This document shows, one piece after another, positions 1 through 35,482 of a stretch of DNA of 35,880 nucleotides. Numbering within the stretch: the stretch's first letter is position 1; each line of letters opens with the position of its first letter. Position numbers and translations under genes: made by a program. The stretch lies in NCBI GenBank assembly GCA_016124575.1, contig WGNM01000009.1, positions 1 through 35,880 on the forward strand, read 5' to 3'. Source of the stretch: Cryomorphaceae bacterium (GTDB lineage: Bacteria; Bacteroidota; Bacteroidia; Flavobacteriales_D; Sanyastnellaceae). The notes below the pieces were generated by a model, which saw only the letters and a program-made list of their open reading frames with translations, did not search any database and was not told the DNA's origin.

Positions 1-71
1 CGTTCCTTAAGGGCTTCAATGGCCACTTGGGCCTTGAATTTTGCAGTGAATTTTCTTCGTTTCATTCTCAT
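1..71 (-). CDS. IS3-family transposase OrfA, N-terminal fragment (runs off the window)
   Basis: Reading the minus strand from the ATG at 71 gives 23 residues beginning MRMKRRKFTAKFKAQVA. This is the typical start of the helix-turn-helix OrfA protein of IS3-family elements: a basic start, then KFKxQVAIEAL. The rest lies outside the window, so completeness and the OrfA/OrfB frameshift cannot be judged. The start codon is 37 bp inside the left terminal inverted repeat at 109-140, the normal arrangement for IS3 elements. The family call rests on the N-terminal motif plus the matching repeat and the OrfB end at the other edge of the window. Confidence 0.8.
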   Translation of the reverse strand, partial: MRMKRRKFTAKFKAQVAIEALKE

Positions 72-108
72 GACTTCATTTGTTTAAGTTATTAAATTCT
101 ATTAACTT

Positions 109-140
109 AACCAATGGTCGAGATTTTGGGGAGTACTACA
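109..140 (-). repeat. Left terminal inverted repeat (IRL) of the IS3-family element
   Basis: Read on the minus strand from 140 inward, this begins TGTAGTACTCCCC and ends GACCATTGGTT. It matches the repeat at 35740-35771 at 25 of 32 positions, and both begin with the 5'-TG typical of IS3-family ends. It lies just upstream of the OrfA start. The element's outer edge is therefore at 140/141, and window DNA from 141 on is flanking sequence. Confidence 0.8.
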
Positions 141-160
141 GTGCGCACGGCACGGATGTG
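141..160 (+). repeat. Copy 1 of a short GC-rich intergenic repeat (GGCACGGATGT family), abutting the IS end
   Basis: The sequence GTGCGCACGGCACGGATGTG matches the reverse complement of 26339-26368 closely (18 of 20 bases). It shares its GGCACGGATGTG core with 25592-25603. It begins exactly where the IS terminal repeat ends. The remainder of 161-253 shows no gene or other structure I can identify. Confidence 0.6.
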
Positions 161-253
161 GAACTGAACTATGCAGAAAAGTGATGCCCCGACAAGAATG
201 CACTTCATTTTCAGTGCAATCAAACAAACGTCTAATAAAGACTGCCGCAGCTT

Positions 254-289
254 TAAAAAAAAGCGACAACTTCAAAAGAAGTTGTCGCT
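254..289 (-). terminator. Intrinsic terminator of the giant FG-GAP gene
   Basis: A perfect 12-bp stem (262-273 paired with 278-289) has a 4-base AAAA loop. On the minus strand it is followed by a run of eight Ts (254-261). It lies about 30 bp past the stop codon of the minus-strand gene ending at 320. Confidence 0.9.
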
Positions 290-319
290 AAGTAGGACAA
301 ATTTTAATCGAACTGGTAG

Positions 320-3300
320 TTAGTTACAAGATTGTCCGTATTGACTTAAGAACAGTATAAAATCGGCGCTATTTACCACATCATCGCCGGTCAAATCAAC
401 GGTGCAGTTTGAAGAACATCCAAAATCAGAAATAAAGAAGATAAGATCAGCAGAATTGACCACAAAGTCGCCATTCAAATCACCCAAGCACGAGATAACT
501 GTCACGGTTGCGGTGCATTGAGCAACATTTCCAAGGTTATCAGTAACCGTCAGTACAACAGCATTCTCACCTATATTGGTGGCATCAAAGGTGTCGATAT
601 CAACCGTGATCGAAGACACTCCACCTTCGGCGGTTGAACCACCATCTAACTCAGATGCGGCAATAGTTACCGAATTGCTGCTAGACAAGCCAACGGTAAT
701 ATCTTGACAAACAGCAATTGGTAGATCAGGGCCGACAGTATTTTCATACCACGATATCTCATCGATATTTGAAGAAGTTGAGAGTATATCGAGGTCACCA
801 TCACCATCGAGATCTGCCGTATTCACACCCCAGCTATTGCTGTAAGTGGTCGTCACCTCGATTTGTTGTTCAGTAAAGTTTCCTGCACCATCGTTATCAA
901 ACCACAGCAATTGTTCTCCTCCTCCTGATTGTGCGAAACGTAGAATAAGGTCGAGATATCCGTTACCGTTCAAATCGCCAACAGCTATTCCTTTTACTTG
1001 TAGGGTGTTATCTTGAATAATCTGTCGGGGTCCAAAAGCTCCCGTACCATCGTTAGCGAACCAAGAAACAATACCATCCAACTGAGCCAACGAGATAACA
1101 TCAGTATCGCCATCACCATCTAAATCAGCCACTTCAAGTCTGAAAGCTCCATTTTCCTGTGTAGAGATTACTTGCTGCGCTCCAAAACTTCCAAACCCGT
1201 TGTTTTCATACCAGGCAATCTTGTCGTCGTTGCTTGATGCAGAAATAACGTCAAGATCTCCATCGTTATCAAAATCTGCGGCCAAAACATCTCTTGGAGT
1301 ATTTACCTGAGATGAAATTATTGCTTGAGTAGAAAAAGACCCTTCCCCTAAATTCTCGAACCACACAATGAGGTTACCTGTTTTGGAACATGAAACTAAA
1401 TCCAGCTCTCCATCCCCGTTCAGATCCGCAGCAAAAACTCCCTCAGCACCATTAAGAGTTCCAATAATGATTTGGGGACCGAAATTTCCAACTCCATCAT
1501 TTTGATACCATGCCAATTTATTATCCAACTGAGAAGTAGAAATCAAATCCATATCGCCGTCTTTATCGAGGTCAGCTGCAAGCACATCGTTGGCATTTCC
1601 TGCCGTTGAGGTTACAATAGCGTTTGAGGTAAATTGTCCCGTCCCATCATTTGAATGCCATTTGATGTCGTTACCAAAAAAATTCGCTGATACGATATCC
1701 AAATCACCATCACCATCAATATCCGTTGAAATGATCTCGTATGCACCGCCATCAGAGGTAGAAACTATGTTTTCAGTTTCCATAAACACACCCGGACTGT
1801 TTATACTCACACCAACCCTGAAACTAAAAATATAAGGTTGGTTTATACCAAATTCTTTGGTAATAGTAACTGTTACTTCCTCTCCAGGTTTGAAATCACT
1901 AAGAGGATCAAAGGTTACTTCAATACCCGCAATGCTTAATGTTCCTTCTATGTAACCTGATTGGGAGCCATGAACCAAAATGGACGTTGGATCAATGGTT
2001 TCAGAAGACAAAGCCTGATTCAAAGTGAGAACAATATTTGAGTTTAAAACTGCATCATGGGAATTCGCAGTTGGATAGCTAGAAACTATGTATACGTTAA
2101 TTACATTTTCGAACCATTGGAATGTATCGGTCCAGAACGAACCTGAGAGAATATCTAAATCATTGTCTCCATCCAAATCAGCTGCAAATAGAGTTGCAGC
2201 ACCAACAGCTGTAGTCAATACATTTTGTTCGCCAAAGCCTCCTACCCCATTATTCAAGTAAAACGCCACTTTTCCATCTCCGAATGATGCAGAAATGACA
2301 TCCGGCATTTCGTCACCATTCAGATCAGCAACATAAACGCTTCTCGCACCTATTGCTTCAGTAGTAATAATCTGTTGAGCGCCGAAATTCCCTTGTCCAT
2401 CGTTCGCATACCATGCCACTTTATTGTCGTCGGATGACGATGACACAATGTCCGTAAATCCATCCCCATTAAGATCTGCAGGATAAATGCTCGTCACAAA
2501 ATCCGCCTCCGTTGAGATGATCTGCTGAGCACCGAAATTACCGTTTCCGTCGTTGGGATACCAAGCTATTTCATCGTCTACTGACGAGCCTGCTAATACA
2601 TCTAAATCGCCATCACCATCAATATCTGCAGCGCACACCGTTCTTGCTCCCAATCCCATAGTAGAAATGATCAATCGCGGGCCAAATACACCTTGTCCGT
2701 CGTTTTCAAACCAAGCCACTGTATTGTCGTTGATGGATGCTGTGATTATATCTTGATCTCCGTCTCCATCGAGATCAGCATTTACAAAGTTATTGATTGC
2801 CTGAAACGCCGTACTAATCGTTTGTGCTGAGCCAAAAGCAGACTCTCCGAGGTTTTCACACCAAGCTAGAATGTTGTTTTGAGCAGAGCAAACAACGATA
2901 TCTAAGTCCGTATCACCGTCTAAATCACATGCTCTTACATGCTGTGGCGATAAAATTCCCGTATTAACCATTTGGGGACTACTTAGACTACCGGTGCCAT
3001 CATTGAAATAGATAGAAACCGAAGCTTCTGATTGAGAAACAGTTAGAACATCCAAATCACCATCACCATCCATGTCGGCAGAGAAAAGACATCGCGGTCC
3101 GTCAGACGAAGAAGTAATAATCGTAGCTCCGTTATCGAATTTACCCGGACTCAATGGATCAACGCCGACTGTTAAGACAGAGTGAACCGAATGGTTTATT
3201 CCGACTTGATCCTTCACAAGAACCGAGACTCTCTCTCCAGGTTTTAGTCCTGTGAGCAGTGTAAGTTCAATATTGGCATTTCCCAAGCCTGCTATTTCGT

Positions 3301-6300
3301 AGTCTATTTGACCAGATTGTTCACCGTACACAACAATATTGTCTTCATTTAAAAGTGCAGGATCAGGATCTTCATTAAAATTGATGGCTATTGATGATTC
3401 GATGGTAATCTCAGTGTAAGAGGTTTCGGTTGAGATGTTATCCAGAACCAAAAGTTCTCTATTCTCTAACCAAGCCAATTTATGATCGTTATATGAAATA
3501 TAAACGACGTCCAAATCGCCATCGTTATCCATATCTCCCAAACGAATTCCAGTAACAGCAGTGCAAATGGTAGAGATCGTCAACTGAGGACCAAAGGACG
3601 CATCCCCGTTGTTAGCAAACCAGCCAATGGTATTATCGAGTTCTGAGGAAAAAATAACGTCCATATCACCATCACCATCCATATCTGCCGCCTGCACATC
3701 GACAGTGCCAAGGGTAGCATTTGTGAGAATTTGTTGTGAGCCAAAAGTTCCTACACCTAGGTTTTCGTACCACGCGATTTTATGATCACTTTTTGACGCA
3801 GAAAGCAAGTCTAAGTCGCCATCGTTGTCTAAATCTGCAGCGAATATGCTTTGAGTCCCATTAATTGATGTGGTGATATTGATCGGAGCTCCAAAGTCAC
3901 CGTTTCCATTGTTCGCACTCCACTGTATGCTGCCATTAAAACCAACGATTGCATCGAGGTCTCCATCGTTGTCCAAATCTGCCAGGTAAACCTTCTTTGC
4001 AAAACTGTTAGAGTTAACTGTCTCAGCATCAGCAAATGGCCAATTCACGTTATAATCAAGATCATCGGACTGATACTCATTCCAAAAAACATAATCTTCG
4101 TTTATTCCGACAATATCCTCTTCACCATCACCATTTATATCACCATTGAATACTTCCGTTGGTTGTTCATCTGGTTCAATTACTTGTGTGATGCGCTGAA
4201 AGGGCATAGAGAGATAAGAACCTGTAGTATTATTTTTTGAATATAAAATTTGGTACGTATTAGGTGTTGTCCCTCCCGTTTGATTATTGGGTGAAAGAAA
4301 CCATGATGCAAGGCTGAGGTCTAGTTTACCATCTAGGTTGAAATCCGCAGTATGAATTCCATACGTTCGATGATATCTTTGATAGTTTGAATAAAAGCCA
4401 TTGATCGCAAAGGTTCCATTTCCGTTATTTCGCCATATATTCATGGCCATTGTGTCAACACTTCCAACGAAAATATCAAGGTGATTACTGCTGCCAAAGT
4501 CACCCAAAACAAAATCTACCGGATTAAAATAGTACGTATTTATTGTTTTGGGATAGCTAAACGTAAGAGGACCGTCAGATCCTGTAGCTGCTGTGAAGCT
4601 AAATACACGCTTTTGCGGCGTTGCGAGCAGGTTGTGTGTTGTGAGTGTAATGATTTCACCACGCTTGAAATCTCTGGATGGATTGAAAACGAGTTGATTG
4701 GTTCCAAAACCGGTTAACGTGCCTGGGAAATACCCGGATTTATCGCCTATCAGCGACATGGACTTAACATCAATGAATTCGTCCACGACGAGGTTATCGA
4801 AAGTAAATACAATGTTCTCATCGACAGGAACACTCGTAGCGTTTGCCTCAATGGATACGTCAACTATTGAAACTGGAAATGCGTTTCGAATCCATGATAA
4901 ACTACCAGGCCCAATAGTAACTATATCCAGATCGTTATCACCATTCATGTCTAAAGCTTGGAGTTGTTTTACTTGGCTCGGAGTTGTCGTGATGTAATTT
5001 TCAGCGCTGAAACCACCTTCACCATTGTTGGTGAACCAAACCACTTGCTTGTCAGTTTCAGATGATCCAACAATATCAAGGTCACCGTCACCATCAGCGT
5101 CAAATATGACAAGCGCATTAGCGCCGATGGCAGTAGAGCTGAGGACATTTTGGACACCGAAAGTACCTGTTCCATCATTTTCATACCAAGCAAACTTATT
5201 ATCACCTACAGAAGCAGAAATCAAATCTAAATCACCATCACCATCTAGGTCAGCAGTTTCGACATCTCTAGGTGAAATCACTTCATTGGTTACGAGTTCA
5301 GGTAATCCGAAATTACCCAATCCGTCATTTCGATACAAAGAGATGGAGCTTGAAGATCCATTGTTTGTTGAAAACAAATCCATGTCTCCATCGTTGTCGA
5401 TATCTGCAGAATGGAGTGAAAAGATACTCGTAGCTGACGTCGAAATAATGTTCTTAGGGCCGAAATTACCCAATCCATCGTTTGCACACCAAACCATCTC
5501 GGCAACACCGAATTTCGTCGCAATAACATCTAAGCTTCCATCACCATTGACATCAGCGGTAATTACATGTGTGCAATAAGTAACGTTGTCGGCGATCAGA
5601 ATCTCTGTTCCGAACTCGCCATCTCCTAAATTTGGAACCCAATAGACTTTTCCAGCATCGAATACGGAAACAACAATATCTACGTCACCATCATTATCTA
5701 TATCGCCAGGCACTATGTTCGGCACCGTACCTGCGAAAAAACCGATTGTTGTATAATTATATTCACCGAATAGACTATATTCTTTATAGTTTGGGTCATT
5801 AACATTTTCAAACAGTCTCAAACCCGGTGTCCCACCTATACCTATCATTGCATCAAAAAGACCATTTCCCGAAAAATCGGCCAAGAAACCGCTCCAAATT
5901 AATACCACTGCCCCGCTAATGTGATCTCTATTTTCAAAAAAGCCGCCCGCACTTTCCTCACTAACAGCACAATTGAAACTAAAATTGATTCCTTCGGTTT
6001 GCGTAAGATCAGAAGAAACAGCAACTGAGATCTTATCCCCTACTTTAAAATTATTTGTAGGATTAAAGGTGATTTCGTTGGTACCACCTCCTGTAAACGT
6101 TCCATTGACTCTTCCATAGACATTGCTCATGATGCGGATGTTCGTATTGTTCACAAGACTTATATCTGTCGGTCCACTAAATGTGAGGACAATATCGGCA
6201 TCTATGGGTACACTTGTAGCATTGGCCGCAGGACTAGAAGCCACAAAGCCAATTGGAGGGAGCATGTTAGAAGTGGATACTACATTTGTCTCTGAAGTTG

Positions 6301-6373
6301 CGGATGCCTGCAAAAGAAAGAAGAAACAAAGGGCTAAAGCGCATGCTTTGAAAAGGTTATCAGTTGGTTTCAT
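320..6373 (-). CDS. Giant secreted protein: four FG-GAP/VCBS seven-repeat propellers, Ig-like linkers and a dockerin-like tail
   Basis: This is a 2017-residue exported protein. Residues 1-25 form a signal peptide (hydrophobic LALCFFFLL ending QASA). Four Ig-like, Big_5/SbsA-like domains (about 42-140, 505-600, 990-1080 and 1430-1525) each precede an FG-GAP/VCBS block (about 145-505, 600-985, 1085-1425 and 1530-1870). I count seven Ca-binding DxDxDGDxD-type repeats in every block (28 in all), each followed by a W-[FY]-x-N-[DN]-G stretch, as expected for integrin-alpha-like seven-bladed propellers. A HYR-like domain (about 1885-1960) follows. Two dockerin-like EF-hand loops with paired cysteines (about 1961-2017) end the protein. 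There is no T9SS sorting domain. It is probably a cell-surface or secreted adhesin or binding protein; the ligand is unknown. A LuxR-type gene lies upstream in the same orientation, and a terminator follows. Confidence 0.9.
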   Translation of the reverse strand: MKPTDNLFKACALALCFFFLLQASATSETNVVSTSNMLPPIGFVASSPAANATSVPIDADIVLTFSGPTDISLVNNTNIRIMSNVYGRVNGTFTGGGTNEITFNPTNNFKVGDKISVAVSSDLTQTEGINFSFNCAVSEESAGGFFENRDHISGAVVLIWSGFLADFSGNGLFDAMIGIGGTPGLRLFENVNDPNYKEYSLFGEYNYTTIGFFAGTVPNIVPGDIDNDGDVDIVVSVFDAGKVYWVPNLGDGEFGTEILIADNVTYCTHVITADVNGDGSLDVIATKFGVAEMVWCANDGLGNFGPKNIISTSATSIFSLHSADIDNDGDMDLFSTNNGSSSSISLYRNDGLGNFGLPELVTNEVISPRDVETADLDGDGDLDLISASVGDNKFAWYENDGTGTFGVQNVLSSTAIGANALVIFDADGDGDLDIVGSSETDKQVVWFTNNGEGGFSAENYITTTPSQVKQLQALDMNGDNDLDIVTIGPGSLSWIRNAFPVSIVDVSIEANATSVPVDENIVFTFDNLVVDEFIDVKSMSLIGDKSGYFPGTLTGFGTNQLVFNPSRDFKRGEIITLTTHNLLATPQKRVFSFTAATGSDGPLTFSYPKTINTYYFNPVDFVLGDFGSSNHLDIFVGSVDTMAMNIWRNNGNGTFAINGFYSNYQRYHRTYGIHTADFNLDGKLDLSLASWFLSPNNQTGGTTPNTYQILYSKNNTTGSYLSMPFQRITQVIEPDEQPTEVFNGDINGDGEEDIVGINEDYVFWNEYQSDDLDYNVNWPFADAETVNSNSFAKKVYLADLDNDGDLDAIVGFNGSIQWSANNGNGDFGAPINITTSINGTQSIFAADLDNDGDLDLLSASKSDHKIAWYENLGVGTFGSQQILTNATLGTVDVQAADMDGDGDMDVIFSSELDNTIGWFANNGDASFGPQLTISTICTAVTGIRLGDMDNDGDLDVVYISYNDHKLAWLENRELLVLDNISTETSYTEITIESSIAINFNEDPDPALLNEDNIVVYGEQSGQIDYEIAGLGNANIELTLLTGLKPGERVSVLVKDQVGINHSVHSVLTVGVDPLSPGKFDNGATIITSSSDGPRCLFSADMDGDGDLDVLTVSQSEASVSIYFNDGTGSLSSPQMVNTGILSPQHVRACDLDGDTDLDIVVCSAQNNILAWCENLGESAFGSAQTISTAFQAINNFVNADLDGDGDQDIITASINDNTVAWFENDGQGVFGPRLIISTMGLGARTVCAADIDGDGDLDVLAGSSVDDEIAWYPNDGNGNFGAQQIISTEADFVTSIYPADLNGDGFTDIVSSSSDDNKVAWYANDGQGNFGAQQIITTEAIGARSVYVADLNGDEMPDVISASFGDGKVAFYLNNGVGGFGEQNVLTTAVGAATLFAADLDGDNDLDILSGSFWTDTFQWFENVINVYIVSSYPTANSHDAVLNSNIVLTLNQALSSETIDPTSILVHGSQSGYIEGTLSIAGIEVTFDPLSDFKPGEEVTVTITKEFGINQPYIFSFRVGVSINSPGVFMETENIVSTSDGGAYEIISTDIDGDGDLDIVSANFFGNDIKWHSNDGTGQFTSNAIVTSTAGNANDVLAADLDKDGDMDLISTSQLDNKLAWYQNDGVGNFGPQIIIGTLNGAEGVFAADLNGDGELDLVSCSKTGNLIVWFENLGEGSFSTQAIISSQVNTPRDVLAADFDNDGDLDVISASSNDDKIAWYENNGFGSFGAQQVISTQENGAFRLEVADLDGDGDTDVISLAQLDGIVSWFANDGTGAFGPRQIIQDNTLQVKGIAVGDLNGNGYLDLILRFAQSGGGEQLLWFDNDGAGNFTEQQIEVTTTYSNSWGVNTADLDGDGDLDILSTSSNIDEISWYENTVGPDLPIAVCQDITVGLSSSNSVTIAASELDGGSTAEGGVSSITVDIDTFDATNIGENAVVLTVTDNLGNVAQCTATVTVISCLGDLNGDFVVNSADLIFFISDFGCSSNCTVDLTGDDVVNSADFILFLSQYGQSCN

Positions 6374-6392
6374 AATTAATTGATTAGGTACA

Positions 6393-6400
6393 CAAATTTA
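6393..6400 (-). promoter_or_regulatory. Putative -7 box of the giant FG-GAP gene
   Basis: The minus-strand sequence TAAATTTG is a perfect match to the Bacteroidota -7 consensus TAnnTTTG and lies 19 bp before the ATG at 6373. No good -33 TTTG lies at the usual distance; only TTTC is present. Instead, the dyad at 6422-6441 occupies the position where an activator would sit. Confidence 0.55.
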
Positions 6401-6421
6401 GCTTTACAAAAAGTGTCATGA

Positions 6422-6441
6422 AATACGTATACCTACGTATT
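6422..6441 (-). promoter_or_regulatory. 20-bp dyad operator, site 1 (upstream of the FG-GAP gene)
   Basis: The minus strand reads AATACGTAGGTATACGTATT, two perfect 8-bp inverted arms around GGTA. It is separated by exactly 21 bp from the -7 box at 6393-6400 and overlaps the last codons of the LuxR-type gene. Site 2 at 6718-6737 matches at 18 of 20 positions with the same 21-bp spacing. LuxR/NarL-type HTH proteins bind dyads of about this size, so the neighbouring regulator is the obvious candidate; that link is inference. Confidence 0.65.
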
Positions 6442-6684
6442 AAAACATTGCGGATTTTGTACAATCCACACCAACAGAGCGTTCTGAGACGGTTGAAGCT
6501 GAAGCTTCTTCATAATATTGCTGCGGTGTTTTTCTATAGTTCGAGGTGAACATTTACGGATATTCGCAATCTCTTTTGAGATATATCCTTCTCTGATAAG
6601 GCGCAAAATCTCCATTTCTACTGCAGAAAGCAATGGTTCTTCTCGTGAGCTATCTGAATGCGGATCATTTTTATAAATATCCAT
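6433..6684 (-). CDS. Small LuxR/NarL-type HTH regulator (no receiver or sensor domain)
   Basis: This 83-residue protein is almost entirely a GerE/LuxR-type DNA-binding domain. LSAVEMEILRLIREG starts helix 1, and KEIANIRKCSPRTIEKHRSNIMKKL is the helix-turn-helix with the expected T-[IV]-xxH and KL positions (written here as two separate motifs). It has no response-regulator receiver, PAS or ligand domain, only about 17 polar residues in front. Stand-alone GerE-type proteins of this size exist, but the input signal is not visible. The ATG at 6684 is only 4 bp after a TAnnTTTG-type box, so the message may be leaderless; a TTG at codon 18 is an alternative start. Matching dyads upstream of this gene and of the next gene suggest that it controls itself and the giant surface protein. 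Confidence 0.85.
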   Translation of the reverse strand: MDIYKNDPHSDSSREEPLLSAVEMEILRLIREGYISKEIANIRKCSPRTIEKHRSNIMKKLQLQPSQNALLVWIVQNPQCFNT

Positions 6685-6688
6685 GCCC

Positions 6689-6696
6689 CAAAACTA
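6689..6696 (-). promoter_or_regulatory. Putative -7 box of the LuxR-type gene
   Basis: The minus-strand sequence TAGTTTTG fits TAnnTTTG and ends only 4 bp before the ATG at 6684, so transcription could begin at or next to the start codon. It is exactly 21 bp downstream of dyad site 2, the same geometry as at the FG-GAP gene. Confidence 0.5.
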
Positions 6697-6717
6697 CTTG
6701 GAGACAAACTCATAAAA

Positions 6718-6737
6718 AATGCGTAGACCTACGTATT
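6718..6737 (-). promoter_or_regulatory. 20-bp dyad operator, site 2 (upstream of the LuxR-type gene)
   Basis: The minus strand reads AATACGTAGGTCTACGCATT, with 8-bp inverted arms carrying one mismatch. It matches site 1 at 18 of 20 positions and sits 34 bp upstream of the regulator's start codon, which suggests autoregulation. Between here and 7037 I see no gene and no clear terminator for the operon ending at 7038, only a weak resemblance to the CACAG-type intergenic repeats near 6908-6938. Confidence 0.6.
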
Positions 6738-7037
6738 GATGTCATCCAATGATAAGAAGCAATAAAATCAGGTTTTAAAAAGCTCCGCTGCTAAAGTGAT
6801 CTGCTGATTCGAGTAATAAATCGTAACAGCAAGTCTGATTACCTGATCGCAACAAAATTCATGGTTCGGTTCGGAAGGAAAGTATCCATTCTTTCTAAGC
6901 GTTAATTAAAACCACAGTGAGCCAAGGATACAAAGTTTCAGGGCATTGAATCTACCGCAGGCGATTTCCATGCGCTGTCGCTTTGTAATCCTCAGTCAAT
7001 GTGTTTATTATCTTTACTTTCTCAGACCTGGAGATTC

Positions 7038-14339: not shown

Positions 14340-16424
14340 CTATTCCTTGATAATCTTTTTACTTGCCAATAGTCCGTCGAAGTCGATGTTCAACATATAC
14401 ACGCCACTTGCCAATTTCGAAAGATCCAACTGTACAGTTGTTTGGCCATTCATGCGTTGTTTTTGATTCGATAAAACCAATTGCCCTGAGATATCTGTTA
14501 CGGTAATCGAAATATCTTGTGCCTTTGTTAAGTCGAAATTGATTGTTAAAACTTCGTCTACAGGGTTTGGGTAGATGTTGAAAGCTGCCTCTAGTTCAGA
14601 AACATTTTCGCATATCTCCACTGTTACAAAAGTGTTAGTTTCGAATTCCCATCCGAATTCATCGGTAAAAGCATAGGTAATTTGAACGGGACCTACACCA
14701 GCGTCGGCAGGGAAGAATTGACCTCCTATAACTCCAAAACCTGAAAAAACACCTCCTGAAGGAGTGCCTAACATGTTGTATGCGTTGGCGTCTTGTATGC
14801 AATAAGGATCGCTACTTAAACCAACAATACCCAACAATACTTCTGGATGCACGGTAACTGTAACTTCTCCGTTTGCTGAGCAATTGAACTCATTTGTTAC
14901 CTCAACAGCATAAACTGTATCTTCTTCTGGACTCACTGAATGCTCTGCTCCTGCTCCAACGCCTTGATCCCACAAATAGGTAGCACCACCTGAAGCGGAA
15001 ATGGTTGTCGATTCACCAAAACAAATCACCACGTCATCGCTCACCGTTGCTATTGGAGTCGGATTCACTGCTATCGTCACGGTATCCTGCGATGAGCAGC
15101 CAAAATCACTGCTCACTGTAACGAAGTAATCTGTTGTTTCTTCTGGGGCAACAGTTTGTGCTTGATCTTCATTGAAAAAGCCTGTCCATTGGTAATTGGC
15201 ACCGCCGCTTGCTGTGATCTCCGTGCTTTCACCAAAACAAATTGTCTGATCTGGTCCAGCATCGGCTATCGGAACTTCATATACCACAATCAATACCTCA
15301 TCGCTGCTTGCACATCCGTTCTCTCCTGTAGCTGTCAAATTGAATGTTGCAGAAGCATCAAGATCAAACATTTGAATAAGTGATTCACCGGGGAATTCGA
15401 GCCACTCTACAGTGCCTTCGCCAGAACCAGAAATGGTGACCGATTCTCCAGCACATATTTCAACATCCGCGCCAGCGTCAACAAGCGGAAGTGGCAAAAC
15501 CTCTACCAATACTGCTGCTTCGGTAGTGCAGTTGAACTCGTTTGTAAGCGCCACTGAGTAATCAATTGTGAACTCAGGATCGACTACCACAGATGAAGTG
15601 GTGCCGAGTCCATTGCTCCATAAAAAATCTCCAGTACCTAAAGCTTCGAGGGTTATTGGAAATGCGTCAGCACAAAGTGAAACATCATCAGACACTGTGA
15701 GTTCAGGAGATGGATTTACTTCAATATCAAAAGAAGTAGTCGATGTGCCGACAATATTGGTAACTGTTAGAGTTACCGTTTTCGTTCCTGGTGTGGAATA
15801 GCTAACATTTTTATCCCCTCCTGTGTTGGATGTCGCTGGTGAAGCGCCTGCTCCAAAATTCCACGAATAGGTGAGCCCTGTTCCAGTTGTGAGATCTTCA
15901 ATCACCAAATTCTCGTCTTCACAAACGAGAACGGAACTTGGGTTGGCGCTAGCTTGTGGTGCGACAATTTCTACATAGTCGAAATTTACAGATGCATTGA
16001 TGCACGGATCGCTGACACCGCTGCAACCAACACCACCCGGACAAGAATCGGTGATTACAACGCGAAAGCGAATAAACCCACCAACAGGATCTATGGAAGA
16101 ATTCCACTCGTTTGCTGTTATTACATCTGTATCGGTGACCCATGAACAGCCATTCCCTGAATTGCTCTTATTGAATAGGTCAACCCATGTTCCGTTTTGC
16201 AAAACGTCTACGTTGAGCGATCCTGAATTGCTACTGCCCCACGGACCGCAATAAATCCACTGAGCAGTCATGGTAATACTCGAAGTTAGGTATGGTGCAT
16301 TGTCGAATTGCCATTCTCTGTAGGTGTAGGCTTGACAAACTTGTCCTGATGTGGCGGTGTAATTCTGCCCAATCATGGAAGTAGATATCCACAACAAAAG
16401 GAGAGTAAGAATAAAGTTGCGCAT
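14340..16424 (-). CDS. T9SS cargo protein with PKD and Ig-like repeats
   Basis: This is a 694-residue exported protein. The signal peptide is MRNFILTLLLLWISTSMIGQ; I chose this ATG (16424) because the 22 residues in front in the longer frame do not look like protein. An N-terminal cysteine-containing beta-sandwich-like region (about 20-150) resembles domains that bind ligands on secreted proteins. A PKD domain (YSWNFGAGASPATS, TPGTKTVTLTVTN) follows. Several roughly 80-residue Ig-like repeats of the type DAGxDxxICxGExxxIxAxG come next. The C-terminal 75 residues form a type A T9SS sorting domain (FNIYPNPVDE, LDLSKLASGVYML, KKIIKE), so it is probably anchored at the cell surface. Binding partner unknown. 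Confidence 0.9.
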   Translation of the reverse strand: MRNFILTLLLLWISTSMIGQNYTATSGQVCQAYTYREWQFDNAPYLTSSITMTAQWIYCGPWGSSNSGSLNVDVLQNGTWVDLFNKSNSGNGCSWVTDTDVITANEWNSSIDPVGGFIRFRVVITDSCPGGVGCSGVSDPCINASVNFDYVEIVAPQASANPSSVLVCEDENLVIEDLTTGTGLTYSWNFGAGASPATSNTGGDKNVSYSTPGTKTVTLTVTNIVGTSTTSFDIEVNPSPELTVSDDVSLCADAFPITLEALGTGDFLWSNGLGTTSSVVVDPEFTIDYSVALTNEFNCTTEAAVLVEVLPLPLVDAGADVEICAGESVTISGSGEGTVEWLEFPGESLIQMFDLDASATFNLTATGENGCASSDEVLIVVYEVPIADAGPDQTICFGESTEITASGGANYQWTGFFNEDQAQTVAPEETTDYFVTVSSDFGCSSQDTVTIAVNPTPIATVSDDVVICFGESTTISASGGATYLWDQGVGAGAEHSVSPEEDTVYAVEVTNEFNCSANGEVTVTVHPEVLLGIVGLSSDPYCIQDANAYNMLGTPSGGVFSGFGVIGGQFFPADAGVGPVQITYAFTDEFGWEFETNTFVTVEICENVSELEAAFNIYPNPVDEVLTINFDLTKAQDISITVTDISGQLVLSNQKQRMNGQTTVQLDLSKLASGVYMLNIDFDGLLASKKIIKE

Positions 16425-16558
16425 AATAAATCTTGGTTGTAGGTGACTAAATCGTATGCAAAAATCGACTTTTTTTTCGGTTAAGAACAAATTGTTAGTT
16501 AGGCATATCTTAACGGCAGCGCCACATTTCTGATTATTACAATCGGTATATTTCGCTC

Positions 16559-18436: not shown

Positions 18437-18836
18437 TTAAAATGAATCGCCACAACCGAGCCCAAATACCGAAAGGAAGGTCAATAAATCGACTACATTC
18501 ACCTCACCATCGCCACTGAGATCTGCAGTACAATTTGAAGCATACCCAATTTCGCTCAACAAGGTCAGCAAGTCCGATGATTTTCGCGAACTATAATCGT
18601 TGTAATCTCCACGCATCCACATTGCGATGGAATCGCAATTATGCCGACTTTAAGAAACGCAGCCTGATCATTGGCCCCTTCTGCAACCCAAATCTTTTCC
18701 GTTCCTTAGAAAGCATCCAACCCGTTTTGGACTAAAGTGAATGCATTCGCCCAGGAACTGCCATCATTCAAGCCAACTGCGTCCTTATCGACATAAATGA
18801 TGCTAGACTGTGCACGAAAAACTGGACATAATGACT
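18437..18836 (-). pseudogene. Remnant of a beta-helix/dockerin-tail protein (relative of the next gene)
   Basis: Reading the minus strand from about 18836, a frame gives FRAQSSIIYVDKDA, then GLNDGSSWANAF, then an in-frame TAA, then GTEKIWVAEGA. This is the start of the beta-helix module seen three times in the adjacent 1222-residue protein (IYVDADAAGSNDGTSWLNAY...LWIAEGTYKP). After a frame change near 18622 it continues as an intact dockerin-like tail (GDYNDYSSRKSSDLLTLLSEIG, here named in parts, then CTADLSGDGEVNVVDLLTF). The whole beta-helix body between is missing. There is no signal peptide. It is a deleted and frameshifted copy, probably left by duplication or recombination next to the functional gene. 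Confidence 0.8.
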
Positions 18837-18905: not shown

Positions 18906-21900
18906 TTAATCGCAATTTCCTCCGAAAAAGGAGAAGAATGCCAGCAAATCACCTATCGACACGCTTCCATCGTTATTGATATCTGTAAAGCACCCTGCTG
19001 AACAGCCCAACTCACCTATGATTAATAACAAATCTACAGAGGAGAAAGACCCGTCGTTATTGAAGTCTGCCTGACAACCGACATCCAAAGACTCAATTCT
19101 AATGTCGAAGAACCCTATCTGCTGATCGACCCCTTCGATTCTGATTCTAAAAGGGGTACCTGGTTGCACGCCTAGTACATCTAGTGTTTCCGACAATCCA
19201 GATCCACTCGAATTCTCACACGATATCTCCTCTAGGTTCGAGCAGTTGTTATCGAACAAACCAATTTTCACGTTGAAGCTATTCGAAATGGGTATAACAT
19301 TGTCTACAATAATACGCACAGCTCCCTCCGCAGGGGCGGTAAATCCATACCATACTGAATTCCCATTTGATTGAGAGCATGACAATAGTTGATCATTACC
19401 TGCAGAAGCGCATTTGTTCGTACTAAACAATGGTTCTTCGTTAACATTCAAGATAATTAAACCGGTACATTCGTCATTTACCGAAGCACATGAGCTAGAT
19501 TCAAAACATCCTAAATCAGGCAGCAATCCTTGTACTGCTGGATTGTTCGCGAGATCAAAATCAAGTGTTGGCGCATCTAAACCAATATCAATTCCCGGTG
19601 ATTCTGGTAAGAGTGTGAAGTCGTTAGCTGCGGCATCACTGAACAAGGGGTCAATGTCCAAAACCAAACTACCTGATCCCCCTCCTTGTATAATGCAGTG
19701 ATCAAGCGATGGTCCGTTCACATTCTCGAAATTGATGTTGTCCCAAAAAATGGTATTAAAAGCACTCGCCGTAGACCCTGAATATACATGTACTTCGTGA
19801 CCGGCTTGGTCGTCATGTGTGTTTTTTGAGAATGTTGAATTCCGAATAGCAATATCAACCGGTGATGTAATTGATGAAATCTGCCCTCCCTCAGCTATGT
19901 GATTATCGAAGAGTAAACAATTGTCAATTACCGCTGTCCCATTTGAAATCGCTAAAGCGGATGCCGCAAAACCTGTGTTCAAATTGAAGTTGCAATGACG
20001 TATTGAAAGGTCTCCTTCTTCACAATGGATGGCTCCTCCAACGTAGCCTTCACCTTCAATGCTGTACACTCTTCTGAACTCAAATCCATCGATCAATACT
20101 TCACTGCCTGCATCTAAAATATGGATGAGCTTTTTCGAATTGTCTGTGATATCGGTTTGATTTCCTATAGCTCCGGAAAAGATTGTCTTATTCAATGCCC
20201 AATTTCGCTGTGTTCTCACAGTCTCTGTACCATCAAAACCACCAAAAATCTTTGTATCGGCAGGTACCTCGAAAGCGATATCTCGGTCATTCGTTGTCGT
20301 TGGCTTGTACAATCCCTCTGCTACCCAAATCTCTGCCATGCACTCTACCGAATTCAATGCAGTTTGCAAATCGGTGTAGGCATTCGCCCAGCTTTTTCCA
20401 TTGTTATTTCCAGTTGCATCCTGGTTAACGTAAATAAGGATTTTGTCGTTCTCATCGGTCTCAAATGCTCCGATTTCCAATCCCGCTCCAAGCTGACGTG
20501 CAGTTCCATTTAGGTCATGAGTGGATAAAAGTGGATAAGAAGCTCCTGCATCGATTCCAACTGAATTCAAACAAAGTCTGTAATCATTATTCAACTCAGA
20601 AATAAACGTTGGAATTTCTGTTATGCAGTCTATTGAATCGATTCCAGGAAAAAGGTACTCTGGTTGGACGATGCAATTCAACACACTTGATGGTGCATCA
20701 AAAAAATAGCCAGAGGCGATTTGATTGCCATAAAAAAGTGAATTTTGAATCGTACATGATCCATTGCTATGGATCAAATTTCCTGGATTCAAAGTAATGG
20801 ACGAATCATATGAAGTATTGTCAACAAAGGTACAATTCAAGATGTCTACATCCAGGCCATACAATGCTAAAACATCAACCTTTGAAGTATTATTGATGAC
20901 CAAACATCCTTCCATGTAAAATTGATAGTCAGCCTTGAGGGCAGAACCTTGAATGGCTGTATTGCCAATCAATTCGCAATTGATCATATTCAATGGTCCG
21001 ACAATCAACAGTCCACCTCCATCTGAATGGGCAGCATTTTGAGCAATCACACAATTTGAAAGGTTTGTAACAACATTCAAATAGTAGTTAGGCAAGTAGA
21101 ATCTACAACCAGCACCCGATCGTAAATCATAAGTATCACCGCTTGTGGCAGTGGAATCGAATGCATGCCCGTCTCGTATTATTAATCCATCCAGTGAGAC
21201 TTGATAAATGTGATTTGCTACACGCTGCACGAGGGTAACAACATGAATTGAGTTGTCTGTCGAGTCGTTCAAATTCCCAATATTTCCAGACAGGGTTGTT
21301 TTGTGCGATTTCCAATCTCGTTGCGACAAATTTGTCTCTGTGCCATCAAAACCGCCGAAAAGAGATACGCCAAGTGGCAATTCGAAAGAAGTATATCGAT
21401 CCGATAGACTGGGTTTGTATGTACCTTCTGCTATCCAAAGCGTATCTTCTTCACTTGCGTTCAAAAGGGCGTTGTTCAAATCTGAATAAGCATTGAGCCA
21501 CGATGTTCCGTCGTTTGAACCTGCTGCATCCGCATCCACATAAATCCTACCTCGATAGTGTTTTTCGTAGGCTCCGAGATCAACAGATTGACCGTAAATT
21601 CGACCTAATCCTCCTAAATCTTTACCTGCTGTTATAAATGAATCATCTCCAGCATCCATGGCCGCTGAGCCAACTTTTAACCGCTGATCGTTGGGTCCGG
21701 CAAACATTGGATCTCCACTAACAATATTTGAAATGCCTGTTCCTGTATACGGTAGGTCGATGAGGACGTGAGACCCTGTAACATGAGAAGGTAGAGAAAT
21801 CGACATATCGTTTCCGTATACTATTGAATTGTAGATCTCTACTGTAGGCAAATCACCAGTATTCCCAGCTATTCCAGCAGTCAAACCTGTTGCTGAGTTG

Positions 21901-22574
21901 TTCGTAAATGAGCAGTTTTCAATGCGCAGGTGATGATCTGATTGGACTTCAATCATGTGATTATTCCCTGAACCGTTGTTCTGAAATGCGCAATTTATAA
22001 ATTCAAGATCCCCATCAAAATCCCATGCAATGGCGCTGTATCCTGATATGTTATTCTCAAAAATACAATGGCGAATAATCGCATCAACATTGTTCGGTTC
22101 AACGGCACGAAATACCCCTGCTGTCGTATATTCTGCTCCAAGGACTTCTGAGTAAGTGTTGGTAATGGTAAAGCCATCAATTACAATCCCTGAACCTTCT
22201 AAGTTGAACAAGGTGTGGAAATAATCTTCCTGATTCAACACTCCCGGATTGCCAGAAAGCGAGGTAACATTATTCGCCCAATCTCGCTGATTTCTGAGTG
22301 TCTCCGTACCTTTAAATCCACCGAAAATCTTCAAGCCTTGTGGTAATAAAAAACCATCATCATTCGGATCTCCGAAGTAAGGTGGATGGGCTCCTTCTGC
22401 TACCCAAATCTCATCGTTCGCAGAAGCATTGTCAATCGCTTCATACAAAAATGTATATGGTGAAGACCAAGATGTACCATTCCCTGATGGGAAAACTTGG
22501 TTGTTTACATAAATAATGGCGGATTCTCCTCGGAATGCGAGAATAAGAAATACCAGAGCAAAGACAAAACGCAT
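18906..22574 (-). CDS. Secreted right-handed beta-helix protein with three modules and a dockerin-like tail
   Basis: This 1222-residue protein has a signal peptide MRFVFALVFLILAFRGESA. Three related modules start at about residues 20, 341 and 710. Each opens with IYVxxxAxGxNxGxSWxNAYxxLxxAL, then IWVAEGxYKP, then KIFGGFxGTET, then hydrophobic right-handed beta-helix rungs (IDGFTI, NCxFxNN patterns), and closes with LGAYE, IGAFE or LGCFE. Residues about 1025-1150 form a beta-sandwich with VWYGFTAP, similar to pre-peptidase-like C-terminal domains. The last 60 residues are a two-loop dockerin-like tail with cysteines (DFNNDGSFSSVDLL, DINNDGSVSIGDLL). There is no T9SS sorting domain. It is probably a surface or secreted adhesin or glycan-binding protein; no catalytic residues are evident. 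A decayed relative lies just downstream. Confidence 0.88.
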   Translation of the reverse strand: MRFVFALVFLILAFRGESAIIYVNNQVFPSGNGTSWSSPYTFLYEAIDNASANDEIWVAEGAHPPYFGDPNDDGFLLPQGLKIFGGFKGTETLRNQRDWANNVTSLSGNPGVLNQEDYFHTLFNLEGSGIVIDGFTITNTYSEVLGAEYTTAGVFRAVEPNNVDAIIRHCIFENNISGYSAIAWDFDGDLEFINCAFQNNGSGNNHMIEVQSDHHLRIENCSFTNNSATGLTAGIAGNTGDLPTVEIYNSIVYGNDMSISLPSHVTGSHVLIDLPYTGTGISNIVSGDPMFAGPNDQRLKVGSAAMDAGDDSFITAGKDLGGLGRIYGQSVDLGAYEKHYRGRIYVDADAAGSNDGTSWLNAYSDLNNALLNASEEDTLWIAEGTYKPSLSDRYTSFELPLGVSLFGGFDGTETNLSQRDWKSHKTTLSGNIGNLNDSTDNSIHVVTLVQRVANHIYQVSLDGLIIRDGHAFDSTATSGDTYDLRSGAGCRFYLPNYYLNVVTNLSNCVIAQNAAHSDGGGLLIVGPLNMINCELIGNTAIQGSALKADYQFYMEGCLVINNTSKVDVLALYGLDVDILNCTFVDNTSYDSSITLNPGNLIHSNGSCTIQNSLFYGNQIASGYFFDAPSSVLNCIVQPEYLFPGIDSIDCITEIPTFISELNNDYRLCLNSVGIDAGASYPLLSTHDLNGTARQLGAGLEIGAFETDENDKILIYVNQDATGNNNGKSWANAYTDLQTALNSVECMAEIWVAEGLYKPTTTNDRDIAFEVPADTKIFGGFDGTETVRTQRNWALNKTIFSGAIGNQTDITDNSKKLIHILDAGSEVLIDGFEFRRVYSIEGEGYVGGAIHCEEGDLSIRHCNFNLNTGFAASALAISNGTAVIDNCLLFDNHIAEGGQISSITSPVDIAIRNSTFSKNTHDDQAGHEVHVYSGSTASAFNTIFWDNINFENVNGPSLDHCIIQGGGSGSLVLDIDPLFSDAAANDFTLLPESPGIDIGLDAPTLDFDLANNPAVQGLLPDLGCFESSSCASVNDECTGLIILNVNEEPLFSTNKCASAGNDQLLSCSQSNGNSVWYGFTAPAEGAVRIIVDNVIPISNSFNVKIGLFDNNCSNLEEISCENSSGSGLSETLDVLGVQPGTPFRIRIEGVDQQIGFFDIRIESLDVGCQADFNNDGSFSSVDLLLIIGELGCSAGCFTDINNDGSVSIGDLLAFFSFFGGNCD

Positions 22575-26857: not shown

Positions 26858-27826
26858 TCACTTTCCTACTACGATGTTCATCGCGTTTGTGAAAGTAGAA
26901 GTCGTTATCGACACGGTGTAAACACCCGCAGCCAAGCTGTGCTCCAACACTGCTCTGTTGCCGTTTACAATCATGCTGTTCGTTATGCGATGCGCCATTA
27001 CGGTTTTTCCGCTCTGGTCATATACTTGAACGATCAATGGTTCTTTTGTTAAATCCAACGCTTCGTTGAACTGGAAGTTGATGATCCCATCCATTACTGG
27101 ATTCGGAAATATCTCAACCGCCGCTTTGTCTGCTGCCAATTCACCAACGGTTAATGCTGTGCCCGATTCGTTGAACAGACAAGATCCGTCGTTAAAAGTA
27201 GCTGTTGCATTGTAGTTAGATGCATCAGACATTGTGCAGCCAAATACTTGCGCGTTGTTTGTGCTAAATGTCAAATTACGAGCTTGCCAAACGCTGTTTT
27301 CAGCTTCCCAGCCCTGCATGTTCAATGTCCCGTGCGCCTCACCTGTTGTAGTGAACTGCATCAAAAGCACCAAGCCGTTGTTTGATGTGGTACGCTCGTC
27401 GGTTGGAATCAAAAACCACGCTCCGTTGTTCGAAGTGATGGCTCCGCCGTTTGTAAAGGCTTCAAAATCAATACCGATGTTCCACAAGTTGTTTTCAAAG
27501 CTGTTTTCTGCTCCAATGGTCACCCATGAATCAAAAGCGAGCGATGGCTCAATATTTACAACAGATGGCTGAATGTCTACACTCTGGTAACCACCCAAGG
27601 CATGCTGGAAAAATCCGTTTTGAGATACAATCTCCATTGGCGACTCATCGTCTGCAAATACTGCATGAATACTCTGGTCTGCAGATGGCAATTGTGCGTA
27701 AACACGATATGTATTGCCCATTACCACACCATTGTTAGGTACCGATTGTACCACCAGTTGAACGTCACTAGCAGATGAGAAAAGGTAGACTCCCATCGCC
27801 AAAAAGGTCATTGTAAGGTTTTTCAT
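26858..27826 (-). CDS. Small T9SS cargo protein
   Basis: This 322-residue exported protein has signal peptide MKNLTMTFLAMGVYLFSSAS. The beta-rich body is of unknown function. A CTMSDASNYNATATFNDGSC segment matches the short GCTD-xxAxNYNxxAxxxDGSC module often found in Bacteroidota secreted proteins. A T9SS type A sorting domain (VEIFPNPVMDG, VYDQSGKTVMAH, SLAAGVYTVSI) completes it. It is probably displayed or released by the T9SS. A terminator follows; it is divergent from paaZ. Confidence 0.88.
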   Translation of the reverse strand: MKNLTMTFLAMGVYLFSSASDVQLVVQSVPNNGVVMGNTYRVYAQLPSADQSIHAVFADDESPMEIVSQNGFFQHALGGYQSVDIQPSVVNIEPSLAFDSWVTIGAENSFENNLWNIGIDFEAFTNGGAITSNNGAWFLIPTDERTTSNNGLVLLMQFTTTGEAHGTLNMQGWEAENSVWQARNLTFSTNNAQVFGCTMSDASNYNATATFNDGSCLFNESGTALTVGELAADKAAVEIFPNPVMDGIINFQFNEALDLTKEPLIVQVYDQSGKTVMAHRITNSMIVNGNRAVLEHSLAAGVYTVSITTSTFTNAMNIVVGK

Positions 27827-32360: not shown

Positions 32361-33434
32361 CTAATCTCTGTAATAAAATGTCCGCGGCGCCACACCAACC
32401 TCATGTGTCTCAAGCATTTGTCCGCTCGCACTGTACAAATATACGTTATCGTTATCGATGTAATTTGGCACCGATGTGAGCAAAAACTCACCGGTCGCGG
32501 GGTGTACAACCATTGCGCCAAACTCTCCAGTTATGAGATCTGAAACGAATGTACCAACTGCAATGGGCATGCGCATGATGCCGTGGTTCAGCACGTACAA
32601 TTCATCTTTCTCTGGGTTCATTTCGAGGTAACGGGGGTGGTCACCTGCTACGCCTACGTTGAGTATAGCTGTTACGATGAGTGCTTCGCGATCGATGCGG
32701 TTGAGCTGGGGCACTGATTCAGATACGATGTTCCAGTCGGCATCAAATAGGGTTTGTCCGCCTCCCAATACCCATACATTCCCTTGGTAATCGACTTCCA
32801 TAGCAACAGGATTTAGTGTTACATCAATGGTTTCTACTACGCTGTCGGTCAAGGGGTCAATAACGGTAACGGTTTGATCGTAATCCCACCCTCCGCTGTT
32901 GCACACAAATACGTACTGTCCGTTGTAAACAATTTCTTCTGGTCCGTAACCTACTGGTATCGAGCCTATTATTTGGTTACTAGACAAGTTCACGATCATC
33001 AATTCTCCGTCTATGCTGCCGTTCGACAAGTAGGCTTTTTGCTCTGAAACAGGCAACAGATGGCGGGGATAGTCGCAACCGGTAATAACGGCCAATTCGG
33101 TAGTGGATGTGGCATCGGTAATTACAACTTTCTGGCTGTTGTTCATCACCAAATAGCCTTTGCCTTCATACTCGGTGTACGATTGCATGACGTCGCCTGG
33201 TCCGTAACCGTTGGCTGCTGAAAAGGTGTTGCTCCGCAAGGTGCCGTCGTCGGCTAACCAAAATAATTCGGCGTTGTTGAATCCAAAGGTTCCTTCGCAG
33301 CCTATCACAAAGCCCGATTTGACGGTGGTAGTGATCTCTTCTTCAGGAGTTTCTTCTTTCTTACATGATGTAAATGCTACGACTGCTGCCATTGCAAGCA
33401 TCGCCACTCGTTTGTTTATCTTTTCCATTGCCAT
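32361..33434 (-). CDS. BtuG-like surface lipoprotein (YncE-like beta-propeller, DUF5074 type)
   Basis: This is a 357-residue lipoprotein: MEKINKRVAMLAMAAVVAFTSC with lipobox AFTSCKK. The body consists of YncE-like propeller blades (VVITDATSTTELAVI, LMIVNLSSNQIIGSIPVG, VTVIDPLTDSVVETIDV, DELYVLNHG). In gut Bacteroides, BtuG proteins of this architecture sit on BtuB and capture cobalamin at the surface, and they are encoded next to it. Here the gene overlaps the end of the TonB receptor gene and lies under the same cobalamin riboswitch, which makes the BtuG assignment strong. ATGs at 33434 and 33428 are both possible starts. Confidence 0.85.
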   Translation of the reverse strand: MAMEKINKRVAMLAMAAVVAFTSCKKEETPEEEITTTVKSGFVIGCEGTFGFNNAELFWLADDGTLRSNTFSAANGYGPGDVMQSYTEYEGKGYLVMNNSQKVVITDATSTTELAVITGCDYPRHLLPVSEQKAYLSNGSIDGELMIVNLSSNQIIGSIPVGYGPEEIVYNGQYVFVCNSGGWDYDQTVTVIDPLTDSVVETIDVTLNPVAMEVDYQGNVWVLGGGQTLFDADWNIVSESVPQLNRIDREALIVTAILNVGVAGDHPRYLEMNPEKDELYVLNHGIMRMPIAVGTFVSDLITGEFGAMVVHPATGEFLLTSVPNYIDNDNVYLYSASGQMLETHEVGVAPRTFYYRD

Positions 33435-35284: not shown

Positions 35285-35329
35285 ACCTTGCAGCGTGTTT
35301 GCACCGAACACACTTAAAAGCGTTAATGC

Positions 35330-35482
35330 TAAAGGCAGGTCTTCTGACTTGTTCCGTTGTTGCGCCTTCCCAATCAATGATCAGTGGCAAAGAATACAAC
35401 AACACAAAAGGAACTTACAGCTGCGGGCACAGTTCCGGACTTTTACCGGATTCCCTATTAAACTCTTGCGAGTACCAAAAGC
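35330..35482 (-). ncRNA. Cobalamin (adenosylcobalamin) riboswitch
   Basis: The minus strand contains GGGAATCCGGTAAAAGTCCGG, cited as GAATCCGGTAAAAGTCC, then AACTGTGCCCGCAGCTGTAA, then GCCACTG, GGGAAGGCGC, and the B12 box AAGTCAGAAGACCTGCC. All conserved blocks of the cobalamin riboswitch are in order. It is followed by a hairpin-forming segment without a U-run before the receptor ATG at 35284, so control is probably translational. It governs the BtuB-like, BtuG-like and TraB/GumN operon. Confidence 0.96.

Follow-up and report, generated by a model that had tools for sequence, protein, structure and literature searches.

Sequence and predicted structure of a putative surface-attached string of four seven-bladed FG-GAP propellers and Big_5 domains in a Cryomorphaceae bacterium

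Contig WGNM01000009.1 of a Cryomorphaceae bacterium (GenBank assembly GCA_016124575.1) carries a long gene rich in FG-GAP repeats, which raises the question of how these repeats are partitioned, how they arose and what the encoded protein might do. The stretch analysed here (the window; 35,880 nucleotides, forward strand) is the entire contig, and the gene is a single uninterrupted open reading frame on the minus strand (320–6373), a complete gene whose 2017-amino-acid (aa) product is a probably secreted bacterial protein. A first-pass annotation had proposed that it contains 28 FG-GAP repeats in four sets of seven, each set preceded by a Big_5-like, immunoglobulin (Ig)-like domain. The reading favoured here, with a probability of about 0.58, is that the protein is secreted, is attached to the surface and consists of a string of four seven-bladed β-propellers of the integrin alpha type, each on a Big_5 Ig-like domain. 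Its parts are as follows:

320–6373, minus strand: whole gene, with signal peptide, four times Big_5 plus seven FG-GAP blades, HYR-like stretch and GC-type dockerin-like tail
6296–6373, minus strand: probable N-terminal signal peptide (aa ~1–26), judged by eye from a basic start, a hydrophobic core and ASA|T
5951–6256, minus strand: Big_5 domain 1 (aa 40–141), by Pfam and our own Big_5 profile
4889–5947, minus strand: FG-GAP block 1 (aa 143–495), seven repeats, the first one degenerate
4577–4876, minus strand: Big_5 domain 2 (aa 500–599), by Pfam and our own profile
3464–4579, minus strand: FG-GAP block 2 (aa 599–970), seven repeats, 1–4 divergent
3149–3454, minus strand: Big_5 domain 3 (aa 974–1075), by Pfam and our own profile
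2108–3151, minus strand: FG-GAP block 3 (aa 1075–1422), seven regular repeats
1796–2098, minus strand: Big_5 domain 4 (aa 1426–1526), by Pfam and our own profile
743–1801, minus strand: FG-GAP block 4 (aa 1525–1877), seven repeats
494–736, minus strand: HYR-like stretch (aa ~1880–1960), with Pfam HYR at aa 1926–1959 (12.3 bits, below the cut-off of 21.7)
323–493, minus strand: GC-type dockerin-like C-terminal tail (aa 1961–2017), with two Asp-rich loops and four cysteines

Pfam FG-GAP_3 matched the protein with 570.5 bits over 23 stretches (cut-off 26.9) and Pfam FG-GAP with 117.2 bits over 21 stretches (cut-off 22.1). The Big_5 family matched above its cut-off in four stretches (96.5 bits), and our own Big_5 profile placed such a domain before each of the four blocks, in agreement with the proposal; as this profile was trained on the four domains of this protein and on those of two further loci (L168 and L101), its coordinates here are partly circular.

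To count the blades, a profile was built from the protein's own repeats, which returned 28 blades in four groups, with 7, 7, 7 and 7 loops per block. Since such a profile is circular for this purpose, leave-one-block-out and relatives-only profiles were added. The leave-one-block-out profiles, for which the underlying alignment was built with all 28 blades, recovered 27 of the 28 blades at a domain E≤0.01 in a one-sequence search, missing only the first blade of block 1 (B1_1). The relatives' profile, constructed from 400 of 1064 relatives' blades (originally found with the profile of this protein) and excluding the protein itself, marked exactly 28 stretches. At least 8.2 bits was reached by 26 of these, compared with a top score of 7.3 bits among 200 whole-protein shuffles, and the weak pair consisted of the blades that open blocks 1 and 2 (B1_1, –3.8 bits; B2_1, –2.4 bits). 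When the B1_1 region was scored alone, it obtained 2.9 bits, with one of 1000 shuffles of that region scoring higher (3.4). The arrangement of 28 repeats as four sets of seven is thus confirmed.

The calcium loops, described in the first-pass annotation as being of the DxDxDGDxD type, conform to that description in 26 of 28 cases, with Asp, Asp/Asn, Asp/Asn and Asp at loop positions 1, 3, 5 and 9; for B1_1 (DFSGNGLFD) and B2_1 (DFGSSNHLD), the only loops lacking the full ligand set, it is a loose one. In units 1 to 4 (a unit being a Big_5 domain and the block that follows it), the Big_5 end and the second loop are separated by 83, 78, 75 and 75 aa, indicating that unit 1 has space for a first blade. 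Mean within-block blade identity was 0.265 and 0.271 in blocks 1 and 2, compared with 0.376 and 0.375 in blocks 3 and 4, confirming the impression that the former pair is the more degenerate; block 2 also has longer repeats.

Blade numbers were then compared across relatives, represented by 76 loci (L058–L133) from genome records that comprise the best 80 of 195 confirmed stretches and that, being picked by short peptides of this protein's blades, represent its subfamily rather than all FG-GAP proteins. Among reading frames of 300 codons or more, 101 had blade matches, and the 99 with at least four blades were counted; 19 blocks cut at locus ends were left out. At a threshold of 5 bits, 116 complete blocks were obtained, of which 100 have a blade number that is a multiple of seven: 58 have seven blades, 41 have fourteen and one has twenty-one. 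The corresponding values were 97 of 120 at 0 bits and 99 of 115 at 10 bits. Among the 16 exceptions are proteins that score low and look different (L085, L109 and L130), but also clear cases such as a run of 15 blades (L067) and six-blade blocks in L105 and in one of the five blocks of L121. Judged from these sequences, seven is the unit of this FG-GAP subfamily and not a coincidence. The rule holds for the subfamily and should not be generalised to all VCBS propellers, because, according to PMC9218822, highly repetitive VCBS-like propellers have a median of 6, whereas WD40 peaks at 7 and 14. Comparison across unlike proteins and linkers provides a clear natural test of seven blades as the structural quantum of this subfamily.

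In many of these relatives, the inter-block domains were, by eye, quite unlike Big_5. The Big_5 profile found its domain in the window protein and in L058, L059, L087, L101, L168 and L169, and in the remaining relatives returned just near-noise fragments, in L074. In Phaeodactylibacter xiamenensis, five loci (L060, L061, L066, L079 and L089) on several contigs of a single genome encode propeller strings that look much alike; several of these extend as far as a contig end, and repeat collapse in the assembly is possible.

Protein structures were predicted using AlphaFold2 for aa 36–975 (units 1–2) and aa 970–2017 (units 3–4). In the alignment used for units 1–2, the relatives started at their second blade, leaving B1_1 without relatives; an earlier alignment had been dropped, unfolded, as the relatives' last block-1 blade landed on the linker owing to the degenerate first blade of the query. 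Across most of the propellers in the units 3–4 model, the predicted local distance difference test (pLDDT) score was ~90 or more, and it was under 50 for aa 1881–2017. Blocks 3 and 4 each aligned with integrin alpha from chain residue 1 to ~452 (block 3, model residues 108–456 with 1tye_A, Z 34.3, root-mean-square deviation (rmsd) 2.4 Å, 326 residues aligned; block 4, model residues 559–912 with 3fcs_A, Z 34.4, rmsd 2.6 Å, 332 residues aligned). Block 2 aligned with integrins at Z about 30–32 and rmsd 3.0–3.7 Å (for example, model residues 567–940 with 3zdz_A, Z 31.0, rmsd 3.5 Å, 343 residues aligned). Sequence identity in the integrin alignments was 9–16%. Some matches covered block 3 plus the next Big_5 domain against the integrin propeller and the part following it (9e8b_A, rmsd 4.5 Å over 366 residues; others with rmsd up to 8.2 Å), a hint in these models of the same order of parts as in integrin.

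By eye, the block 3 model comprises 28 strands, opening with an FG-type strand and finishing on strand three of a blade; 28 strands are also listed for block 4, although there one strand is divided in two and the final outer strand is absent. Each block opens with a lone FG-type strand and stops after strand three of a blade, as would be expected were the N-terminal strand to complete the last blade and so close the same ring. As each of blocks 2, 3 and 4 alone aligns with a whole integrin ring, packing across the linkers is not suggested, and the predicted structures, judged from these alignments, showed neither that arrangement nor a blade number other than seven, the two outcomes that had been named as refuting the proposal. 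The expectation of four complete seven-bladed propellers is therefore supported by the models for blocks 2, 3 and 4, and block 1, modelled with six confident blades (2–7), is only consistent with it.

How the four units arose was addressed by phylogenetic and self-comparison analyses. The four Big_5 domains are mutually homologous, and the composite unit of Big_5 and seven blades occurs elsewhere, alone in L087 and L168 and paired in L101. Since the Big_5 domains are homologous and the unit is found both alone (L087) and paired (L101), copying of whole units is a sensible reading of the sequences, as had been proposed. The tree did not recover the four units as a clade (0% of 200 bootstrap trees), and a forced clade was not rejected (approximately unbiased test, p-AU 0.156; 0.080 for the Big_5 part alone). 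The highest identity of units W1–W4 was to L087 and not to a sister unit (39, 36, 46 and 47%, respectively). A blade-position signal was weak over all blocks (p 0.09); among the six block pairs tested, blocks 3–4 (0.7% of permutations) and blocks 1–2 (2.7%) stood out, weakly suggesting two pairs of sister units (1–2 and 3–4). Self-comparison of the gene DNA gave 116 off-diagonal matches, the longest being 195 bases at 68% identity, indicating that no near-identical unit copies are left, and Tandem Repeats Finder detected no repeats in window positions 1–7000 at periods of up to 500 bases. Taken with the blade identities and the tree, these results led to the rejection of a recent blade-by-blade or unit duplication. 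The duplications are old, given that the internal DNA matches reach at most 68% and that the units are closer to L087 than to their sisters.

The C-terminal tail bears on how the protein is held. A search of the own genome with the GC-type dockerin family NF041540 (cut-off 29 bits) gave 19 matches, 12 of which were over the cut-off, the tail of the propeller protein among them at 34.7 bits. A profile seeded from this tail and run on the fetched loci of this genome (L002–L038) identified the domain in 27 distinct reading frames, and in 26 of these it ends at most 15 residues from the stop codon; four columns of the tail were mostly Cys (20, 22, 26 and 22 of the 26 frames). Less clean among these are a 70-codon frame (L017) and two frames with a single visible loop (L037 and L038). 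Across the family, the tail was found in 90 of 114 genomes, over the cut-off in 81, and cohesin was matched at E≤0.01 in 12 of the 114 (five over the cut-off), several of which also carry the tail. The name of NF041540 contains the word 'anchored', and the tail would tether the protein to the cell surface or to a matrix complex. A literature search on the GC-type dockerin retrieved no paper.

No tail of the type IX secretion system (T9SS) type A (Por_Secre_tail) was found in the propeller protein (at E up to 10 with Pfam and up to 1 with NCBIfam), and the own genome encodes at least 150 such tails (150 of 212 candidates scored). A cellulosome reading was rejected, as the own genome gave no hit to cohesin (PF00963; E≤10); Dockerin_1 scored 15.0 bits, below its cut-off of 22.9. 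These observations raise the question of how a dockerin-like tail functions in a genome that yields no cohesin. We regard as speculative, and rather unlikely, the broader idea that a cysteine-bearing, two-loop dockerin-like tail without a cohesin replaces the T9SS tail for surface display in this family. In that scheme, the propeller protein would be an adhesin that is anchored and depends on calcium, its two outer propellers having diverged to bind and its two inner ones having stayed regular.

The product is likely to be a calcium-stabilised surface adhesin. In such a protein, the ~26 calcium loops would make the rings stiff, as they do in other propellers of the FG-GAP kind, the Big_5 domains would act as spacers in a rod, the shape we infer for the whole protein, and the dockerin-like tail would serve as its attachment to cell or matrix. 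Propellers 1 and 2, far from the tail and more divergent, may carry ligand-binding surfaces for a glycan or a protein, and propellers 3 and 4, near and regular, may mainly lengthen the rod. Several observations weigh against the favoured reading. The top-ranked fold is that of the aldos-2-ulose dehydratase propeller (Z 36.0 for block 3 and 35.1 for block 2), above the best integrin values (Z 34.7 in the units 3–4 model and 31.7 in the units 1–2 model); because this propeller belongs to an enzyme and not to an integrin, confidence was slightly lowered. None of the 50 structure matches listed for the units 1–2 model covers block 1, the first blade of which (model residues 113–180) has a pLDDT under 50 where the relatives' sequence was absent, and the B1_1 sequence scarcely exceeds shuffles. 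The predicted template modelling scores of 0.49 and 0.50 imply that domain orientations are not fixed by the models, and Foldseek alignments of the multi-domain model with fungal lectins reached a TMt of about 0.55 with an rmsd of 13–16 Å. Furthermore, the last 57 residues matched NF041540 with 27.3 bits in the whole-protein scan, under the cut-off, and the own genome gave no cohesin match at that E of up to 10.

Three other explanations were considered. The propellers could be lectins that bind several sugars per ring in pockets between blades, repetition providing avidity for a glycan surface, as in the fungal PVL family, instead of a single protein ligand being bound at the tip. The fungal lectins PVL, PAL and Agrocybe lectin showed 19–20% identity in Foldseek, the highest among the 50 matches listed, and according to PMC9218822, VCBS-like propellers are typically tied to carbohydrate recognition, and also to protein–protein interactions. 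However, integrin alpha and aldos-2-ulose dehydratase lead the structure lists, with no PVL-type lectin among the 50 entries listed, and no sugar genes are present among the neighbours on the visible side, so that a lectin role is possible yet doubtful. A passive structural rod or matrix protein, in which calcium-rigid propellers serve as spacers without a specific ligand site, would suit blocks 3 and 4, which are regular (blade identity of about 0.38 within each block), and the unrelated kinds of linker seen by eye between propellers in other bacteria. This explanation seems unlikely in view of the divergence of blocks 1 and 2 and the longer repeats of block 2, which are unlike a plain spacer, and of the Big_5 plus seven-blade proteins that occur singly (L087 and L168). 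That block 1 is a six-bladed or incomplete propeller, its presumed first blade not being a blade, would account for the score of B1_1 with the relatives' profile, its loss when block 1 was left out and its low pLDDT; such a block is improbable, given the comparable spacing in unit 1 (83 versus 75–78 aa), the FG-type strand and Dx..D loop at the expected place and the dominance of sevens among relatives (58 blocks, versus two sixes).

A Tc toxin family, PF12256, which covers the propeller-like midN stretch of the TcB component, also matched the protein (33.6 bits, cut-off 24.8; three stretches, the best at aa 1830–1875 inside block 4). A TcB reading was rejected, as no further Tc domain was present among the eight Pfam families listed; the match is a shared propeller and not a toxin. 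A sequence search of the PDB returned only a dockerin chain, 2y3n (E 3e-4, on the tail), and TcdB1 (E 0.53).

On its visible side, the gene is flanked by genes for a homoserine dehydrogenase and a Cys/Met pyridoxal phosphate (PLP) enzyme; the other side lies past the contig end. In a genome of the same genus (G045), contig C35 (L179) breaks off 117 bases beyond the point at which the alignment with the homoserine dehydrogenase gene stops, where the propeller gene would be next. With aa 970–1526 as the query and at most four candidates scored per genome, 295 further genomes from the phylum yielded no near-identical copy at E≤1e-60. Among the 114 family genomes (own included), 10 others matched at E≤1e-20, with three candidates scored per genome, the best at 3.5e-70 and all partial. 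Among plasmids, 100 records matched, all below 60% identity and none spanning 80% of the query. Elsewhere in the window, T9SS type A tails are encoded at 14340–16490 and 26858–27826 (both minus strand), showing that both kinds of tail coexist on the contig. A 1222-aa protein with choice-of-anchor Q repeats (18906–22574, minus strand) ends in the same kind of tail as the propeller protein, and just beyond it, a 70-codon frame holds a second, partly decayed-looking tail copy (18452–18613, minus strand). A protein at 32361–33434 (minus strand) matches β-propeller families of another kind (PQQ/YVTN-like repeats), below their cut-offs, beside a TonB-receptor-like protein at 33416–35377.

Among known systems, the composite unit is shared with two other loci: L087 (Flavobacteriales CG_4_9_14_3_um_filter_40_17) has the same Big_5 plus seven-blade unit and differs in having a single one and, by eye, a T9SS-like C-terminus, whereas L101 (a Cyclobacteriaceae metagenome-assembled genome) has two such units in one protein, with an additional domain between them, on a small contig of 4079 bases. 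Runella defluvii (L063; 7, 7, 7, 7) and Ignavibacteriales (L078; 7, 7, 7, 7) encode strings of seven-blade blocks with one linker between blocks, and Planctomycetaceae (L088) five sevens and one cut block with single linkers, but the linkers of all three were not matched by the Big_5 profile. GC-type dockerin (NF041540) proteins resemble the window protein in the tail, with its two Asp-rich loops and cysteines, and not in the propellers. Aldos-2-ulose dehydratase (4a7y, 4a7k and 4a7z), the best-ranked fold for blocks 3 and 2, shares 12–15% identity and is an enzyme.

The head of an integrin alpha subunit consists of a propeller followed by an Ig-like thigh domain, and the subunit ends in a transmembrane helix and a KxGFFKR-type tail. 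The window protein is like the metazoan integrin alpha head in its propeller fold from end to end and in having an Ig-like domain after a propeller. Inspection of its C-terminal sequence revealed no KxGFFKR-type motif, the dockerin-like tail being there instead, and it differs further in having four units in a row and one calcium loop per blade, compared with the three or four loops per ring given for integrins in PMC3192720. Among the papers listed for FG-GAP propellers, for dockerins and adhesins and for surface proteins with Ig-like domains, no title or abstract opening pointed to this architecture; on the propellers themselves, the relevant papers in that material were PMC3192720 and PMC9218822. 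Bacterial integrin-type seven-bladed FG-GAP propellers were reported in 2011 (Chouhan et al., PMC3192720), in a paper that describes a calcium loop in (nearly) every repeat and reads sequences with 14 signatures as tandem copies. The window protein agrees with these in having seven FG-GAP repeats per domain and a putative calcium loop in nearly every repeat, and departs from them in its four copies separated by Big_5 domains, its dockerin-like tail and its two decayed loops out of 28. The kind of part is thus already known, and the window protein is an unusually long and regular string of it, in which the spacer is a defined Ig-like domain. Such multiplication of integrin-type heads in bacteria would be of use to adhesin biology and to propeller design.

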